A DNA stretch of 64,000 nt, from positions 372,001 to 436,000 of the forward strand of contig OY744472.1 in NCBI GenBank assembly GCA_963556145.1, given 5' to 3'. The position numbers and the translations under genes were made by a program. The DNA is from Hygrocybe punicea. Its lineage: Eukaryota > Basidiomycota > Agaricomycetes > Agaricales > Hygrophoraceae. This document shows, piece after piece, positions 22,602-40,799 of the stretch (position 1 is its first letter; every line of letters begins with the position of its first letter). The notes under the pieces are model-generated. The model searched no databases and was not told the DNA's origin. It saw only the letters and a list, made by a program, of their open reading frames with translations.

Positions 22602-23071
22602 TGATTTCCTTAATTTTTTTTAATCTGGATTATTCTAACCCGACTCATGATCACTGGTTGTATACACAGCATCATCACAAGTACTCTGTCTTACTATCTT
22701 TTTCTCCTGGATCACTGTCTATGCCTCTAATAATAAGTTCATTGGTTACTATACACCGACGTCGCGAATCTCGGTATCAGAATTCTGCGGTGTTGTGTCA
22801 GCTCAGCCATCCACGCTTCATCACAAGCCTTCACATGCTTCACAGGCTTCACCATCTAAGCTACCATGAGGCAGCCACAAAATTAAAACTGGTATCAATT
22901 TGAGGGTTGTCATTGGTGCCGGTGAGTCTTCTCCCTCAACTCTTTAGGATCTGGGGCAATGGTAGTAACTTACAGAAGACCTGGGACTGTTGTACCAGTA
23001 GTGACCAACGCCGCCAGGGCACATACAGGAACCATCATGTCAGTAGGGGATTGAAATGATCAATTTGGTCT
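22602..23071. other. Intergenic, no gene seen
   Basis: 470 bp between the hypothetical gene and the lectin promoter. Only short ORFs without coding character. It contains 3' flank of the upstream gene and upstream sequence of the lectin. Confidence 0.4.
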
Positions 23072-23086
23072 TATAAATCTTATAAA
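23072..23086 (+). promoter_or_regulatory. Double TATA box upstream of the lectin gene
   Basis: TATAAA at 23072-23077 and again at 23081-23086, 76-90 bp before the chosen lectin ATG at 23162. The spacing suits transcription starting near 23110 and argues against the longer reading frame that opens at 23096. Confidence 0.6.
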
Positions 23087-23161
23087 GGCTCGCTCGTGTG
23101 TGTAATCGTTCTTTGCCAGTTTGCGCTCGCCGCTCACCACATAAGCAGCAGCAACCTCATC

Positions 23162-24080
23162 ATGTCCACCGATGTCAACACCTTCAACACTGTGGAGGTT
23201 CGTCCCTGGAACCAGCCCCAGCTGAATAACTCCAAAGACGTCAAGATCACCGCCCCGGCTGCTGGTTTCCCTATCGGCCTCACTGTGCTCGATATCGCCA
23301 AGGAAGCCAACATTCGCATCAGAGCCTTCACCGACACCCTCACCACGGACTCAATCAAAGTCCATCTTGACTCCTGGGCCGACACCATCCTCTACTCTGC
23401 CGGGTGCACCTGGCTCGCAGTCCATGCGAAAGATGAGGATTTTCAATTCGGCCAATTTAGCACCACGGAAGACCACCCTTGGAACAGGCCCCAGACCCTG
23501 ACCTCCCGCACAATCGTATTCCCCAATAAATTCCACGGTGCCCCGCCGAAAGTCGTCGTTTGGCTCTGCGAGCTCGACATGGCGAGTACTGGCAACCGGC
23601 GCGCCAAAGCCTACGCGAGCGACATCACCGTTGACGGTTTCACCATCCACATTGATACTTGGGGCGATACTACACTGTACAGCGCAGCAGCGTGGTGGAT
23701 CGCATACCCTTCGAGCTCCACATACATCATGTCGGGTTCATTCAACACCATGGACGTGCGTCCATGGAATGTCCCCCAGCTGGTGAATCAGGGCCACGCG
23801 CACTTTGATAAGCCATTCAAACGCCCTCCGAAAGTGATCACAGCGTTGAATTGGATAGATGTAGACCGCAGTGCGAATATGAGGATCAAGACGTCGACGA
23901 GCAACGTTACCAAAGAGGGTTTGACGTGGAATATCGACAGCTGGTCTGATACTGTTCTTTATTCTGGTGGTGCATCTTACATTGCGATTGACGAAGAAGA
24001 CAGGTGAGTATCGGACTTCCACTATATCAGATGAATTGAATGGAACCCGTCCATCCATTAGATCACTTGCGGAGTGGTAA
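23162..24080 (+). CDS. Triple H-type lectin domain protein (286 aa)
   Basis: Three tandem H-type lectin units, the beta-sandwich fold first known from invertebrate GalNAc-binding agglutinins and fungal/Dictyostelium discoidin-like proteins. Each unit starts with the same theme: FNTVEVRPWNQPQ, FSTTEDHPWNRPQ, FNTMDVRPWNVPQ. Each ends with a Trp/Tyr block: IKVHLDSWADTILYSAGCTW, IHIDTWGDTTLYSAAAWWIA, WNIDSWSDTVLYSGGASYIA. Repeats span roughly residues 8-90, 98-185 and 195-278. The first exon runs to 24003; a 58-nt GT-AG intron (24004-24061) adds the end RSLAEW. No signal peptide from this ATG, so a cytosolic defence lectin or non-classical secretion is likely. Sugar specificity cannot be read. 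Confidence 0.85.
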
Positions 24081-24124: not shown

Positions 24125-25120
24125 ATGTGTTCCAATCTAGGTATTGCGCAAACCACAGGTGGAAGGATAGTCTCCTCCTCAAAGTTCGCCTTCCCACCCT
24201 TCGAGCATCCACTGCATGGCACTGACCCCCCCGCAGATCATCAACGTACTCCTCTACTTCTTCTTCCTCGGATCCAATGTATATACCGTCCTTTCACCAG
24301 ACGGCTACCACCATACTGGAAAGGCAACCTACATCACCCCTGCCCCATGGGCCTTTGGAATCTGGTATAGTGCCCCAACGCTTCGCCTCGCTGTTGACTG
24401 GATCTAACCTCCCCCCCGTCCTTTAGGTCCGTGATCCATTTGCTTCTTCTCGGTACGGTGATCTACCAATTCTTTCCGGGTGGCAAGCGAGTCATCGTGG
24501 ACGGCATCTCCTGGCGCTTCCCCCTCCTCATTGTGTTCAATTCTATCTATGTATATTTGTTGCTCACAAAGTACTACACCCTCGCTTTTATTTTCTCCCT
24601 TGTCGTCGGCTCCATAGTCACAGTAAGCAAAGCACCCAACCCGCGCCGATTTCCTTCTCACTACTCCCCATAGCACATCTACTACATCGTGAAGACATGC
24701 CATCCCCCGCAGCACTACCTTGACGACGTCTTCATCCACCTCCCTTTCTCACTCTACCACGGATGGACGACCGTCCTCGTCGTCCTCTCCGCCTTCGTTG
24801 CCTTCGGCGTGGACGCCGCAACGCAACCCGCGGACTTCTGGACCAAGTTGTTCGTGTTCCTTGCGTTGTTCTTCCTCGAAGCTACAGCCGCAGCATACGC
24901 CCTCGTTTACAACCCTGCTGCCAAGGCCGATCTCCCCGGCAGCATCACCATCGCGTGGAGCCTCTTTGCGATTTTCGCACAACAGCAGAACCCTTTTATT
25001 CATTGGAGCGCGTTTGGGTTTGCTGTGCTGTCGTTGGTGTGGATCGTCCGGGCTTCCGTGTACTTGCTGAGGAGGGACGGCGCGATTAGGCTTCCTGATC
25101 CTGAGACGGCGCCGAATTGA
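24125..25120 (+). CDS. Multi-pass membrane protein, TspO-like at most (possible frameshift)
   Basis: From ATG 24216, exons 24216-24364, 24427-24622 and 24674-25120 splice to 263 aa with about six to seven hydrophobic helices: [84 protein letters not shown] and [29 protein letters not shown] resembles the proline/tryptophan block of TspO/MBR proteins, but that assignment is weak. A better N-terminus ([20 protein letters not shown]) starts at 24125 in the adjacent frame. It would join in frame if the C-run at 24225-24231 had one C fewer, so either a one-base error or mutation exists there, or the 24216 start is used. Confidence 0.6.
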
Positions 25121-25397
25121 CAACCTCTCCGAAGTGATGAGATGATGGGATGGAAACCATCAAACCACATGTCTGTCTGCGCTGTCATTATGCTTCTGTG
25201 ATCGGACTGGCGTGTATGCCTTTGCTCATTTTCTAGCAACTTGTATTTCATTCATTACACATTGTTCTACCCTCAAGTTTTCTGTTTCGAATTATCAATT
25301 GGGAAATGCATGTTTTGTTTGCAGACCGTACAATCTATATGGCTTACATCTAGCTTTGAACCACAAAAGGTGTTTGTTCTCAAGGTGTGCCAGATGT
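25121..25397. other. Intergenic, no gene seen
   Basis: 277 bp between two converging genes; only their 3' flanks are expected here. Confidence 0.35.
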
Positions 25398-26582
25398 TCA
25401 CTGTTTGCCGGTTTGACCAGAAAAGCAATGCACATCGGACCTTTGCATCCATTCTGTAACCTTCGCTTGGCTAGCTTGCTGCGCACGCAACTCGTCTTCC
25501 TCCTCCCGCCTCTGTCTCGCCGCAGCTATCGCATCAGGGGTAGTTCCTTTCAGCCACATGGAGAGCGCAAGAACGTCGTCCATTGCTTGTAGCATTCCAG
25601 GCGACATGTCCGTCGTGTGGTGTCTCCTCCTGGGCGAGGTACGGGGCCTGATGTTGCCATCGCAGGAATCGTCAGATTCGCCATCAGAAGAGGTTGGGGA
25701 AATTGGTGGTCTTGGAATAGATTCATAATGCTCCGAGAAGCGACGCTGCATCACTTCTTTGATACCCTCTCCCGCATGCCAGCGCTGATAAGCGGCAACA
25801 CCATACATGTAGTCCAGGAGGATGGCCGGTGGTGGCGAAATCGCTGTACCCGTGAACTGAGCGTCAAGACCCGGGACTGGGACCAAACCAACGGGTGGCA
25901 CCAAGTTCTGCAGAGTGATGCGACTTGGTGGCATTGGACCTGCCTCGATCCTTGGGATGTCAACAGTATCCAAAGCGAAGTTAGGAGTCTGGAACTCGCT
26001 GACTTTTAACAATATCTAAGCTTTGTTCGACCGCTCCACGTACCTTCAGGAAGCCGACTTTCCCATGGCCAAAATGGGAGTGCAGATCTTTGCGTAATAA
26101 TATCCCGTTCTGAACATCATTGATGCCCACTATAGGTTGGATGGGGTCATACAAGTTGAGGCGATCTTCGACAACTCGGGAGATGTACTGGAGAGGGGAA
26201 TTAGTGGAGGCTTTACGTGAGACCATCTCTCGAAGGGTACCTCATCGCCTTGGGATCTAGGGATGAGAGATGATAATCCCCTATATCAAGACAGCACCCT
26301 ATAGTTACTAGCTGCGAGCGAGAAGCTCGAAAACTAAGTCATCTCACCCTGAGGAGTATAGTAATAGTCATCAGCAAGATCAGCATGAGTGACCTTGTCA
26401 TAGTCGGCAGCGGGGCCATCCTGTGTCTCAGAAAGATCTCCACGGGCTCCGCAAACGGCAAACGTAACAAATCGAAGCCATTTGAGAGGGCAAATGGCGA
26501 GTCTCTGAATGTCGGTGGAGGGGATGGAAAGGGCAAGAACTTGAGAACCCTCAGTGGGCACGCTCAAGTAGATGTTCACCAT
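25398..26582 (-). pseudogene. HNH-nuclease family gene, copy 1, nuclease core deleted
   Basis: Minus-strand sister of the gene at 38903-40224. It keeps the N-terminal exon (MVNIYLSVPTEGSQVL; DYDKVTHADLADDYYYTPQG), the exon with YISRVVEDRLNLYDPIQPIV and LLRKDLHSHFGHGKVGFLK, and the C-terminal exon (TPNFALDTVDIPRIEAGPMP to TEWMQRSDVHCF). The whole HNH block is missing. Sister sequence from just after GATTATCATCTC to just before CCTAGATCCC is absent at about 26250-26262, with ATCATC microhomology at the junction. It also differs by a short indel in the intron. Without the HNH residues it cannot be a nuclease. Confidence 0.75.
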
Positions 26583-26702
26583 GGAAGCCAGTCATACAGT
26601 TCGTGACGTCGAGTTGCGACTCGACAGGGGTTGTATAGAATCTTCCCGTTATATTCAAAACATATTCAAAACATATTCAGCTATCATACAATTCGACCAT
26701 TA

Positions 26703-27494
26703 CAGCTGATTTCATAAACATGCGGAAAAGTTGAAAAAAAAATTGAGGTGTAAAAGTTTTGGACTTGGTGAAATTTCTCTTGTATCTCATGGAATACTGC
26801 ATGGATTGAGATGGTTATAGAGGGAAAGTTGTACTATTTCTTAAGGGCTTTCTACTCCTGTGATTACATTTGGATAATATTTAGTGTATGGTGAGTTGTA
26901 GATGAAATAACAGGGAAACCAGCACTTTTTGAGACCCAAAATGATATTGTCAAATTATGGCATCAAATGAGCTCCTATGAACAAGATTGTAGGGGGGAAA
27001 TTGTTCATTTTTTCAAGGGCTAGAAGTACATATACCGTGTTTTCCTTTATTTTTGTGTTTTGAGCCAATATTTATAATTCTTGTGGTATTTCGATCCCAA
27101 TGCAATCAAAAATAGTACAGATGTAATATTGGCTCAAAACACAAAAATAAAGGAAAACACGGTATATGTACTTCTAGCCCTTGAAAAAATGAACAATTTT
27201 CTCCCTACAATCTTGTTCATAGGAGCTCATTTGATGCCATAATTTGACAATATCATTTTGGGTCTCAAAAAGTGCTGGTTTCCCTGTTATTTCATCTACA
27301 ACTCACCATACACTAAATATTATCCAAATGTAATCACAGGAGTAGAAAGCCCTTAAGAAATAGTACAACTTTCCCTCTATAACCATCTCAATCCATGCAG
27401 TATTCCATGAGATACAAGAGAAATTTCACCAAGTCCAAAACTTTTACACCTCAATTTTCTTTTCAACTTTTCCGCATGTTTATGAAATCAGCTG
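26703..27494. repeat. Foldback element: 370-bp inverted-repeat arms around a 52-bp loop
   Basis: The left arm (26703-27072) starts CAGCTGATTTCATAAACATG and ends GAGCCAATATT. The right arm (27125-27494) begins AATATTGGCTC and ends with the reverse complement of the left start. By eye the arms are nearly identical, with a few single-base differences. No coding capacity. It looks like a foldback or MITE-type element between the HNH copy and the borosin gene. Confidence 0.85.
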
Positions 27495-27635
27495 TAAGAA
27501 ATAGTACAACTTTCCCTCTATAACCATCTCAATCCATGCAGTATTCCATGAGATACAAGAGAAATTTCACCAAGTCCAAAATTTTTACACCTCAATTTTT
27601 TTTTCAACTTTTCCGCATGTTTATGAAATCAGCTG
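27354..27635. repeat. 141-bp tandem duplication of the foldback end
   Basis: 27354-27494 (TAAGAAATAGTACAAC to AAATCAGCTG) is repeated at 27495-27635 with only a couple of differences. The outer 141 bp of the right arm is therefore present twice in direct order. This could be slippage or an abutting second, truncated copy. Confidence 0.8.
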
Positions 27636-27796
27636 TAACAGACCACACTATACACACACAGCAGACAATACATGACCCAAACCCCAGGTAGCAACAACTG
27701 TAAGAAATAGACGCTTTTTTGGAACCAACACCCCAGAACATATACCAATTTACGGCAGAAGCGAGTGCCTGGACATGATGCATGATGGGTCTTTAG

Positions 27797-29131
27797 TCAA
27801 ATGAGTACTTCAAGCACCAAGAGCACGAAGGCGGGCGTAACAACCCCAACGTCGAACTGAACATCCCGGCCACTCCTAATGTCAGACAAGGTGGATTTCA
27901 TCACGGCGTAAACCGAACCCTCTTGTCCGGTACCTAAAGCAAACTTCTCTTGCTCAGTGAGTCCATCTGTAGCCTCAACAACTGCCTGTGGATTAATCCT
28001 ATACTCCTCGAGGAGTTTCGGTTTTAGCGAGAGGTCGAACAATAATTTTCTTGCTGCGGGCGAAGCCCGAAGGACCCTGTAATGATCTGGAGCGGTATGG
28101 GTGTCAAGCCTGGCAATGAGCTCGCGCTCGTAAGGGCCGTAGGTAGGTGCAGTTGCCAACGACGGTCCGGACCACGTAGGGACGTCTTTCGCCCAGTTGG
28201 GCAGGCCCAATTTCTGAGCCATGATGTGATGAGCCGGAGTCAGGTCACGAGGGGGAATGTAAAGAGTTGATATGGTGTTGAACTGCTTCACCACTTCCTC
28301 CTTACGAAGATCGGCGATCGTGTATGTGTCCATTGTTGTGACCGATTGGGGAAGAACGGCAGCAATGTAGTGCACGACCTTGTGGTCAGGTCCAAAATCC
28401 TTCTCAAGGCGATCGACGAGCAGACCGAACTTGGCGTTCTAGTACCACAAAGAAGAGAAAAATGAGCCAAATTGAGGGGTATGCTACGCAAGATGGTATG
28501 TACTCGCATCGAATATCATGGTGATGACGCCGACGCCCCCAACTTGCCAGATGATGTTATGAACTGAGGGATTCAACACTCTGTCTCTCATGATCAGTTC
28601 GGTGGCTTCGTATGTCGCACAGCCATTAATAGCGGGGTCAACGCCAAGATCGGCAAACAGGACATCTTCGGCGGAGATTCCTGGGAGCATTCTTGCCTTA
28701 TAGCCCTCCTCGCGAGCTATGGCGATAGCCCTATGAGTGGGTGAGACGAAGACGCCGGGATGCCCGTAGAAGATGCCCAGGACATCGTGGCCAGCTCTGA
28801 CATCTCTCAACATGATCTTCGTTACAAATATTAGCTCATGCCAAAGCGCAAAGAGACGACTACCCGCCTCGCACATCTGGATGTATGTATCATATCTGCA
28901 CTTTTCTGTGTCGTAGAAGACGCTCAAGTCGAAGCAGGCTACTTTGGCGTTGTCCTGAATAAACGCCTCGGTGGCGGGGTCACAAACGACATAGTAGACT
29001 TTCTCGGCCTCCTTGAGATGCGAGACCGTTTCGAGAGTGATATGCGCGATACTCGCAATGCCAGACCCAGCGATGATTAAAGTCCCTTGCTTAGTGGCGG
29101 TAGGGATGGGGGTGGTCGAGAGTGATTCCAT
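27797..29131 (-). CDS. Borosin-type alpha-N-methyltransferase fused to its core peptide (421 aa)
   Basis: Ribosomal-peptide precursor in which a SAM methyltransferase of the tetrapyrrole-methylase fold N-methylates the backbone of its own C-terminus, as in fungal borosins (omphalotin type). Exon 1 is 28508-29131, exon 2 is 27797-28438. The intron (28439-28507) is read as GC-AG because the GT donor four bases further in breaks the frame. Methyltransferase marks: [74 protein letters not shown] and [11 protein letters not shown]. After the intron: [20 protein letters not shown], the STLYIPP block and a helical clasp region with [13 protein letters not shown]. It ends with [17 protein letters not shown] at the stop, an uncharged Val/Leu-rich tail (one Glu) that is the likely core, with no follower peptide after it. 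Length matches the family (about 400-420 aa). No maturase gene is in the window. Confidence 0.88.
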
Positions 29132-29200: not shown

Positions 29201-29208
29201 TTTATATA
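29201..29208 (-). promoter_or_regulatory. TATA box of the borosin gene
   Basis: TATATAAA on the minus strand (plus strand TTTATATA), 70 bp upstream of the ATG at 29131. Spacing and match are good, suggesting the gene has kept a promoter. Confidence 0.55.
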
Positions 29209-29778: not shown

Positions 29779-29809
29779 GAAATTCATGTCTCACGTGTTC
29801 AAGCGTAGT
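29779..29809 (-). repeat. Outer terminal-repeat piece of a Tc1/mariner-like element, cut off by the Helentron
   Basis: 29779-29810 is the reverse complement of 38825-38856 with one mismatch (core CATGTCTCACGTGTTCAAGC). The two pieces are 9 kb apart because the Helentron sits between them. Confidence 0.7.
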
Positions 29810-38856: not shown

Positions 38857-38902
38857 GTGTATGCAACCCCCTGTCGAGTCGCAACCCGACGTATGACTGG
38901 CT

Positions 38903-40224
38903 ATGCTGAACATCTACTTGAGCGTGCCCAGTGAGGGTTCTCAAGTTCTTGTCCTTTCCGTCCCCTCCAGTGACATTCGGGGACTCTCAATTCGCCCTCT
39001 CAAATGGTTTCGATTTGTTACGTTTGCCATTTGCGGAGCCCATGGAGATCTTTCTGAGACACAGGATGGCCCCGCTGCCGACTATGACAAGGTCACTCAT
39101 GCTGATCTTGCTGATGACTATTACTATACTCCTCAGGGTGAGATGACTTAGTTTTCGAGCTTCTCGCTCGCAGCTAGTAACTATGGTGCTGTCTTGATAT
39201 AGGGGATTATCATCTCATCGATTACATGGCATTAAACGAGCAAATAACCTCCTCGGTGCAAACCCCACATCGTAGTCGGTTCCGTGAGGATGTCATGGAG
39301 CGCGACGGTCCATTCTGCGCCATCACCCGGGACACTGCAGATGATTGCGAAGCGGTACACATCATCCCTAGATCCCAAGGCGATGAGGTACCCTTCGAGA
39401 GATGGTCTCACGTAAAGCCTCCACTAATTCCCCTCTCCAGTACATCTCCTGAGTTGTCAAAGATCGCCTCAACTTGTATGACCCCATCCAACCAATAGTG
39501 GGCATCAACGATGTTCAGAACGGGATATTATTACGCAAAGATCTGCACTCCCATTTTGGCCATGGGAAAGTCGGCTTCCTGAAGGTACGTGGAGCGGTCA
39601 AACAAAGCTTAGATATTGTCAAAAGTCAGTGACTTCCAGACCCCCAACTTCGCTTTGGATACTGTTGACATCCCAAGGATCGAGGCAGGTCCAATGCCAC
39701 CAAGTCGCATCACGCTACAGCACTTGGTGCCACCTATTGGATTGGACCCGATACGAGCCCATGATGCTCACTCCACCGGTACAGCGATTTCGCCACCGCC
39801 AGCCATCCTCCTTGACTACATGTATGGTGTTGCCGCTTATCAGCACTGGCGTGCGGGAGAGGGTATCAAAAAAGTGATGCAGCATCGCTTCTTGGAGTGT
39901 TATAAATCTATTCCAAGACCACCAATTTCCCCAACCTCTTCTGCTGGCGAATCTGACGATTCCCGCGATGGCGACATTGAGCCCCGTACCTCACCCAGGG
40001 GGAGACACCACACGACGGACATGTCACCTGGAATGCTACAAGCAATGGACGACGTTCTTGCGCTCTCCATGTGGCTCAAAGGAACTACCCCTGATGCGAT
40101 AGCTGCGGCGAGACAGAGGCGGGAGGAGGAAGACGAGTTGCGTGCGCAGCAAGCTAGCCAAGCGAAGGTTGCAGAATGGATGCAAAGGTCCAACTTTTCT
40201 GGTCAAACCGTCTGCAAACAGTGA
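38903..40224 (+). pseudogene. HNH-nuclease family gene, copy 2, one nonsense codon
   Basis: Exons 38903-39137, 39203-39387, 39441-39584 and 39640-40224 splice by GT-AG introns of 53-65 nt into a frame of about 382 codons with a single internal TGA (39450-39452, YIS-stop-VVKDRL). The sister copy has CGA there. Exon 2 carries the HNH core: RFREDVMERDGPFCAITRD, CEAVHIIPRSQGDE. Domains of this kind cut DNA through a metal at the His-rich finger; the role of this expanded agaricomycete family is not established. The C-terminal region is disordered with a charged helix (RQRREEEDELRAQQASQAKV). One readthrough or reversion away from intact. Confidence 0.75.
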
Positions 40225-40799
40225 ACATCTGGCACAGCATTCAACATTCAGTCATTATTTCCTCAAAATATAATCTTTGAATTTATTGCTATTTGCAAAT
40301 ATAATGACTTTGTCCAAAATAAAATATCTTCTAATCACGCCACTTCAGTTGTTCTTCTTGAAAATGGAGGAGTAAAGATGTCTGCGGCACTGCTCTGTAA
40401 GTCAGAAGCAGGTGCCCAGGACTGATCATTACAAAGTACATGGTTGCGTAACCGGTAAGAACCAAGGGAAGTGGTAAAGGGTGGGAGAGCACAAAGAATG
40501 AGAAGATACAACTGAAGAATGATAAATTTAAAATGTGAGATGAGGAACTGCACAAGATAGCTAAAAAATGCTTACTTGAGGGAAGACTGCAGTCCTTGAT
40601 GAAAGGACAGGAGTTCCCTCGAGGAATATAAAGGGCAGATAAAAAGGGGCAGAGTGAGACAGTGCGATAAGCATGATGGCAAGCAGTAGATAGTTGAAAA
40701 GGGAGTACACAAGGGACTCCAAGGATTAGCCAGTGAATGGCTGAGGAGTCAGCAGTGGTGACCCGACATCTCACGCTATGAGATAATTCTCAGTCACAA
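40225..40799 (-). repeat. Distal part of the Copia 3' LTR region, split off by the Helitrons
   Basis: No gene. 40788-40799 (TCTCAGTCACAA) continues directly into 58519 (TGAGAGATAAC) once the Helitrons are removed, and an uninterrupted version of the joined motif lies at 58613-58642. A long minus-strand ORF (40331-40774, Cys/Leu-rich) has no recognisable coding character. The outer LTR boundary and the junction with the HNH gene's 3' flank could not be fixed. Confidence 0.5.

Follow-up and report, generated by a model that had tools for sequence, protein, structure and literature searches.

The window analysed here, a stretch of 64,000 nucleotides (C40:372001-436000) from a genome of 92 Mb in 42 contigs, carries on its minus strand a gene that begins with an ATG at 29131 and ends, after an open frame, with a TGA finishing at 27797. 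The RPB2 protein of the genome is 97% identical to its best match, a metagenome protein, and 94-95% identical to proteins of Marasmius, Mycena, and Agrocybe, which puts the source among the agaricomycetes. The sequence of the gene makes it very probable that the product is a fused borosin precursor of the fungal type, with MroMA and pocMA as its nearest counterparts. The best gene model has three exons and a predicted product of 404 residues (88 + 103 + 213), with the following features:

29201..29208, minus strand: TATA box
28868..29131, minus strand: exon 1, with the ATG at 29131; residues 1-88, carrying Y73, R79 and Y83
28817..28867, minus strand: intron 1, 51 nt, GC-AG (GCGGGT...GAAG), with a branch-like GCTAAT near its 3' end
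28508..28816, minus strand: exon 2; residues 89-191, carrying GHPG (Y105) and Q179
28439..28507, minus strand: intron 2, 69 nt, GC-AG (GCGAGT)
27797..28438, minus strand: exon 3; residues 192-404 and the TGA stop
28364..29083, minus strand: PF00590 methyltransferase domain of the tetrapyrrole-methylase fold; residues 17-216, E 7.4e-16, the span including the introns
27899..28249, minus strand: predicted clasp domain; about residues 255-371, boundaries by OphMA homology
27800..27832, minus strand: predicted core; residues 394-404, after Pro393 at the extreme C-terminus, the boundary being putative

The TATA box reported in the earlier note is present as TATATAAA (29208-29201); 69 nt separate it from the ATG, which is the placement expected. 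That note proposed a 421-residue protein encoded by two exons, a model that has to be replaced because it reads through the 51-nt GC-AG intron 1 between two catalytic residues. The 51-nt segment is in frame and stop-free, and it adds 17 residues if translated. These residues are missing from all 17 of the public relatives that we aligned, and removal of intron 1 gives a gapless junction with every one of them. Insertions of about 17 residues at this site occur in two of the 120 listed relatives (the best 120 of 1826), P0061 being an unspliced near-copy of the window gene and P0046 carrying an unrelated sequence. The second intron (28507-28439), which the note did recognize, is borne out by introns at the same site in a borosin paralog on contig C6 and, in retained form, in P0026 and P0069. 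Indeed, both intron positions are occupied by introns in the C6 gene, where both are GT-AG (GTGAGC, GTGCAA). The 404 codons of the three-exon model contain no stop.

Of the donor-acceptor pairs enumerated, 21 in the vicinity of intron 1 and 22 in that of intron 2 keep the frame open, several of them with a GT donor, so that the statement that no GT donor keeps the frame had to be dropped. Because the other pairs begin or finish elsewhere, each either loses conserved residues or retains part of the intron, as judged by position rather than by individual scoring; read in the same way, only 28867-28817 and 28507-28439 give the junctions seen in the relatives. A GT lying 4 nt past the GC donor of intron 2 breaks the frame when it is paired with the same acceptor. 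We consider it very unlikely that the 51-nt segment is translated to give the 421-residue form, or that the product comes from some other splicing that keeps the frame. The open frame of the segment, the model of P0061, which is also predicted to be unspliced there, and the number of pairs that keep the frame would allow such a product, but the 17 extra residues would be inserted between the equivalents of OphMA Y76 and Y98, where the 17 aligned relatives lack them and where both the C6 paralog and P0046 have a GT-AG intron; for other splice forms, the relatives' junctions are the obstacle.

The three-exon model requires GC donors at both introns, whereas GT is found in the C6 paralog and in three public models that retain introns. 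These three carry unspliced-looking sequence at the intron 1 site (P0046) or the intron 2 site (P0026 and P0069), and the first extra residue in each is Val, implying a GT donor if the intron starts there. The model of P0061, a metagenome protein, is unspliced at both introns and has Ala at both donor positions, so that its donors are also GC; since the GC donors are common to P0061 and the window gene, they are not a base-call error. GC-AG introns with G at +5 are generally spliceable. A literature search yielded no figure for the frequency of GC-AG introns in fungi. P0061 is 95% identical to the window protein over 231 aligned positions; the two differ at 6 of 191 residues in the exons and, where introns are translated, at 5 of 39 (Fisher p = 0.023). 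These 11 differences, from one relative and at the protein level only, suggest constraint on the exons. Residues 1-73 of P0061, which lie upstream of the near-copy, have 11 genome matches at E <= 1, none of them upstream of the window gene, and the two copies thus differ in their flanks.

Comparison with solved structures places the protein among the borosin methyltransferases, as the earlier note had anticipated. In phmmer searches against the PDB, the best matches are MroMCspL (E 1.2e-143) and MroMA1 and MroMA2 (about 1e-143), followed by dbOphMA (about 1e-104), OphMA (about 1e-99), and the bacterial SonM (about 1e-37); the matches with MroMA1, MroMA2, and MroMCspL extend from residue 13 to residues 389-396 of the window protein. 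Among public proteins, for which the 7998 candidates sharing most words were scored, 1826 reach E <= 0.001, of which the 120 best were listed; the top match has E 2.4e-170, and the first ten listed, pocMA among them, are 57-66% identical over 89-99% of the query. The SAM motifs of the tetrapyrrole-methylase fold, including GHPGVF, are present as first described, sequence alignment places a clasp after the methyltransferase domain, and the same polypeptide ends, in frame, in a hydrophobic tail that contains the putative core. TP_methylase is the only Pfam match of the protein, above the curated cut-off, and many relatives are so named by their sources, as might be expected if the protein were not a borosin but a primary-metabolism enzyme that methylates tetrapyrroles (corrins or porphyrins). 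This reading is extremely improbable given the far stronger match to solved peptide N-methyltransferases, which extends through the clasp, and the presence of both the OphMA substrate-binding residues and the hydrophobic tail.

The active site supports assignment as a borosin precursor. We carried the OphMA numbering over by way of GymMA1 (P0078) aligned to the OphA chain, in which six residues lie at a constant offset of one. The equivalents of R72, Y76, Y98, Y66, and Q172 are all kept in the window protein as R79, Y83, Y105, Y73, and Q179, respectively, and OphMA Y63 is replaced by Ser70. According to PMC6108569, methylation was undetectable after purification for the OphMA variants R72A, R72K, Y76F, Y98F, and Y98A, and was reduced for Y63F, Y66F, and Q172A. 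When only those listed relatives that have a residue at the position concerned are counted, conservation is 101 of 103 for R72, 102 of 103 for Y76, 113 of 114 for Y98, 104 of 106 for Y66, and 118 of 119 for Q172. At the Y63 column, the 120 listed relatives examined (the best 120 of 1826) have Ser in 28, Tyr in 28, and Thr in 18. Homology, active-site residues, clasp, and hydrophobic tail together argue strongly for the self-methylating, borosin-type precursor that the earlier note proposed.

The genome contains at least two borosin genes, defined by six exon matches. A search of the genome DNA with the window gene returned only the self-match, with no second DNA copy. The other gene, at C6:7660308-7661628 (L019 4809-6129), is divergent and groups with GymMA1; it is predicted to encode 376 residues and to have three GT-AG introns, the third between clasp and core, giving the predicted tail LAPPPLVVVIVVV. 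If the third intron is kept, the frame ends earlier with another tail. The window and C6 proteins are identical at 170 of 367 aligned residues. In a FastTree phylogeny with 91 members (the two genome genes and 89 of the 120 listed relatives, chosen as 330-430 residues long plus P0061), the window gene pairs with P0061 (support 1.0), and the C6 gene falls in a 17-member GymMA1 clade (support 1.0) that leaves the window gene, MroMA1, and pocMA outside. GymMA1 itself scores 648 bits with OphMA versus 319 bits with MroMA1. A further TP_methylase match at C33:2437626-2438356 (L001, L003) was not matched in the borosin protein search.

Transposable elements flank the window gene, with a Helitron on one side and a foldback repeat on the other. 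The Helitron (29809 to at least 34686) lies on the same strand as the gene and contains ORFs at 34686-32848 and 32593-30041 (Rep, helicase); its 3' half, used as query, has 65 genome matches. The 3' end near 29809 consists of the hairpin CCTTGCaaGCAAGG followed by TAA, the copies sharing the hairpin and then having TAA or TGA. Capture of the borosin gene by the Helitron was considered and rejected, since this shared 3' end lies near 29809 and the six compared copies diverge beyond it. Downstream of the gene, the foldback element (26700-27497) has 373-nt arms that are 99% complementary, and the region to 27638 includes a 141-nt tandem duplication at one end. The element is found at dozens of genome sites: with 40 of its 875 candidates scored, the query 25000-27796 gave 83 matches, most of them to the foldback element and many counted once for each strand. 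An inverted duplication of 91-93% identity (25386-26637 and 38860-40236) brackets the foldback/borosin/Helitron block, and one of its copies contains an ORF with a weak match to HNH_2 that does not reach the cut-off. A single-frame H-type lectin gene lies at 23060-24004, with three matched stretches and its best-scoring named relatives, at 56-58%, in Tulasnella. A Pfam scan of 30 of the 74 listed ORFs, which genes with many short exons could escape, identified no prolyl oligopeptidase, P450, or NTF2-like partner near the borosin gene; the scanned ORFs show the H-type lectin, a PROPPIN, kinase and ankyrin pieces, and transposon proteins.

Doubt that the gene functions comes chiefly from the GC donors, from the GT close by, and from the transposons on either side. 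They raise the alternative that the locus holds a silent or decaying borosin gene, with an open frame whose correct expression is stopped by the GC donors or by the insertion of transposons at each flank. The C6 paralog and three public models have GT at the two donor sites that read GC here, a competing GT adjoins the donor of intron 2, the Helitron stops some 600 bp short of the TATA box on the upstream side, a high-copy element lies downstream, and the ORFs scanned nearby include no partner genes. Nevertheless, the 404 codons are free of stops, the GC donors recur in P0061 and hence are no fresh error, exons differ less than introns from that relative, and introns of this type with G at +5 can generally be spliced. 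We therefore regard silence or decay as unlikely, though a good deal less so than the alternative products above, and the gene as probably functional.

The earlier description of a Val/Leu-rich tail at the extreme C-terminus is correct, and no other 10-mer of the protein is as hydrophobic as its final 10 residues. The predicted core would start after Pro393. Its sequence is unlike those of known cores, as had been noted, to the extent that it matches at no more than 6 of 11 positions in the terminal 45 residues of any of the 120 listed relatives, partial sequences among them. We compared tails in 66 of the 120 listed relatives (380-430 residues, the other 54 being left out) and the two genome genes. 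Pro is present just ahead of the core in the window gene and several near relatives, and is absent or elsewhere in other relatives, so that a conserved Pro at this position is not upheld as a family rule. No omphalotin-type follower was found past the core, the protein ending in its hydrophobic tail. In the omphalotin system, according to PMC12235650, OphP cyclises N-methylated cores with release of the follower, and a protease of no established identity is thought to cut the clasp first. With no follower, cyclisation of the full tail by the OphP route is impossible, and cyclisation of a shorter core is possible. Release as a methylated macrocycle, which the earlier note had assumed, is consequently unsupported, given the lack of a follower and of an adjacent prolyl oligopeptidase among the ORFs scanned.

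In the whole genome, Peptidase_S9 (PF00326) matches lie on C41, C35, and C7 and not on the borosin contig. The clear Peptidase_S9_N (PF02897) match lies near 2.95 Mb on C6, with some 4.7 Mb between it and the borosin gene of that contig; a weak PF02897 match on C2 was rejected as a peptidase because it falls in a WD40-repeat frame. Pieces of an S9A prolyl oligopeptidase gene are present at C6:2954319-2955954 (L040), and over 167 residues these score 241 bits with PDB 5N4B-5N4F, which we take to be GmPOPB, versus 131 bits with OphP. This prolyl oligopeptidase, unlinked to the window gene, may be a housekeeping enzyme.

On this reading, the protein combines an N-terminal SAM-dependent alpha-N-methyltransferase domain and a clasp with a short, hydrophobic C-terminal core fused to them. 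By analogy with OphMA structures, the precursor would form an interlocked dimer in which each subunit N-methylates backbone amides of its partner's tail, and a protease would then free the methylated peptide, perhaps after Pro393. A broader reading, which we put forward tentatively as possible but doubtful, is that the window gene belongs to a follower-less borosin group whose core is the natural C-terminus and whose products are linear or differently closed N-methylated peptides released by an unlinked host protease, the two GC-AG introns perhaps gating precursor production in this lineage. Were the core the natural C-terminus, follower-releasing cyclisation of the OphP type could not use the whole tail. 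Few mature borosin compounds are known despite widespread gene clusters, according to PMC11395268. The corrected model and the unfamiliar core together provide a directly testable precursor, and the presence of both main tree groups in one genome permits a side-by-side test of follower-less core release. Moreover, the missed 51-nt in-frame intron illustrates how gene models in this family go wrong.

The kind of gene is already known; what is new here is the corrected model, the unfamiliar core, and the unusual splice sites. OphMA, LedMA, and DbiMA1 (the precursors of omphalotin, lentinulin, and dendrothelin) and GymMA1 share the enzyme-clasp-core layout and the catalytic residues of the window protein. 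In OphMA, LedMA, and DbiMA1, as described, the core is followed by a C-terminal recognition sequence, and their clusters include a prolyl oligopeptidase gene; neither was found for the window gene; GymMA1 (P0078), unlike the window protein, ends in polar residues. P0079 cannot be equated with dbOphMA, its C-terminus lacking the DbiMA1 recognition sequence, and is simply a Dendrothele bispora relative. MroMA1 and MroMA2 (PDB 7TWK and 7TWL; Mycena rosella), for the first of which a literature search found no paper, resemble the window protein in architecture and length (59% identity over 92%, P0019), in having a hydrophobic stretch near the C-terminal end, and in lying outside the 17-member GymMA1 clade; they differ in tail sequence and in having Thr rather than Ser at the OphMA Y63 position. 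Finally, pocMA (P0002), named by its source as a type I borosin cyclic peptide precursor, is 66% identical over 97% and shares with the window protein a Pro shortly ahead of a follower-less hydrophobic tail, although the tail sequence differs and that of the window protein includes an acidic residue, a feature present in 4 of the 32 hydrophobic tails that were counted.
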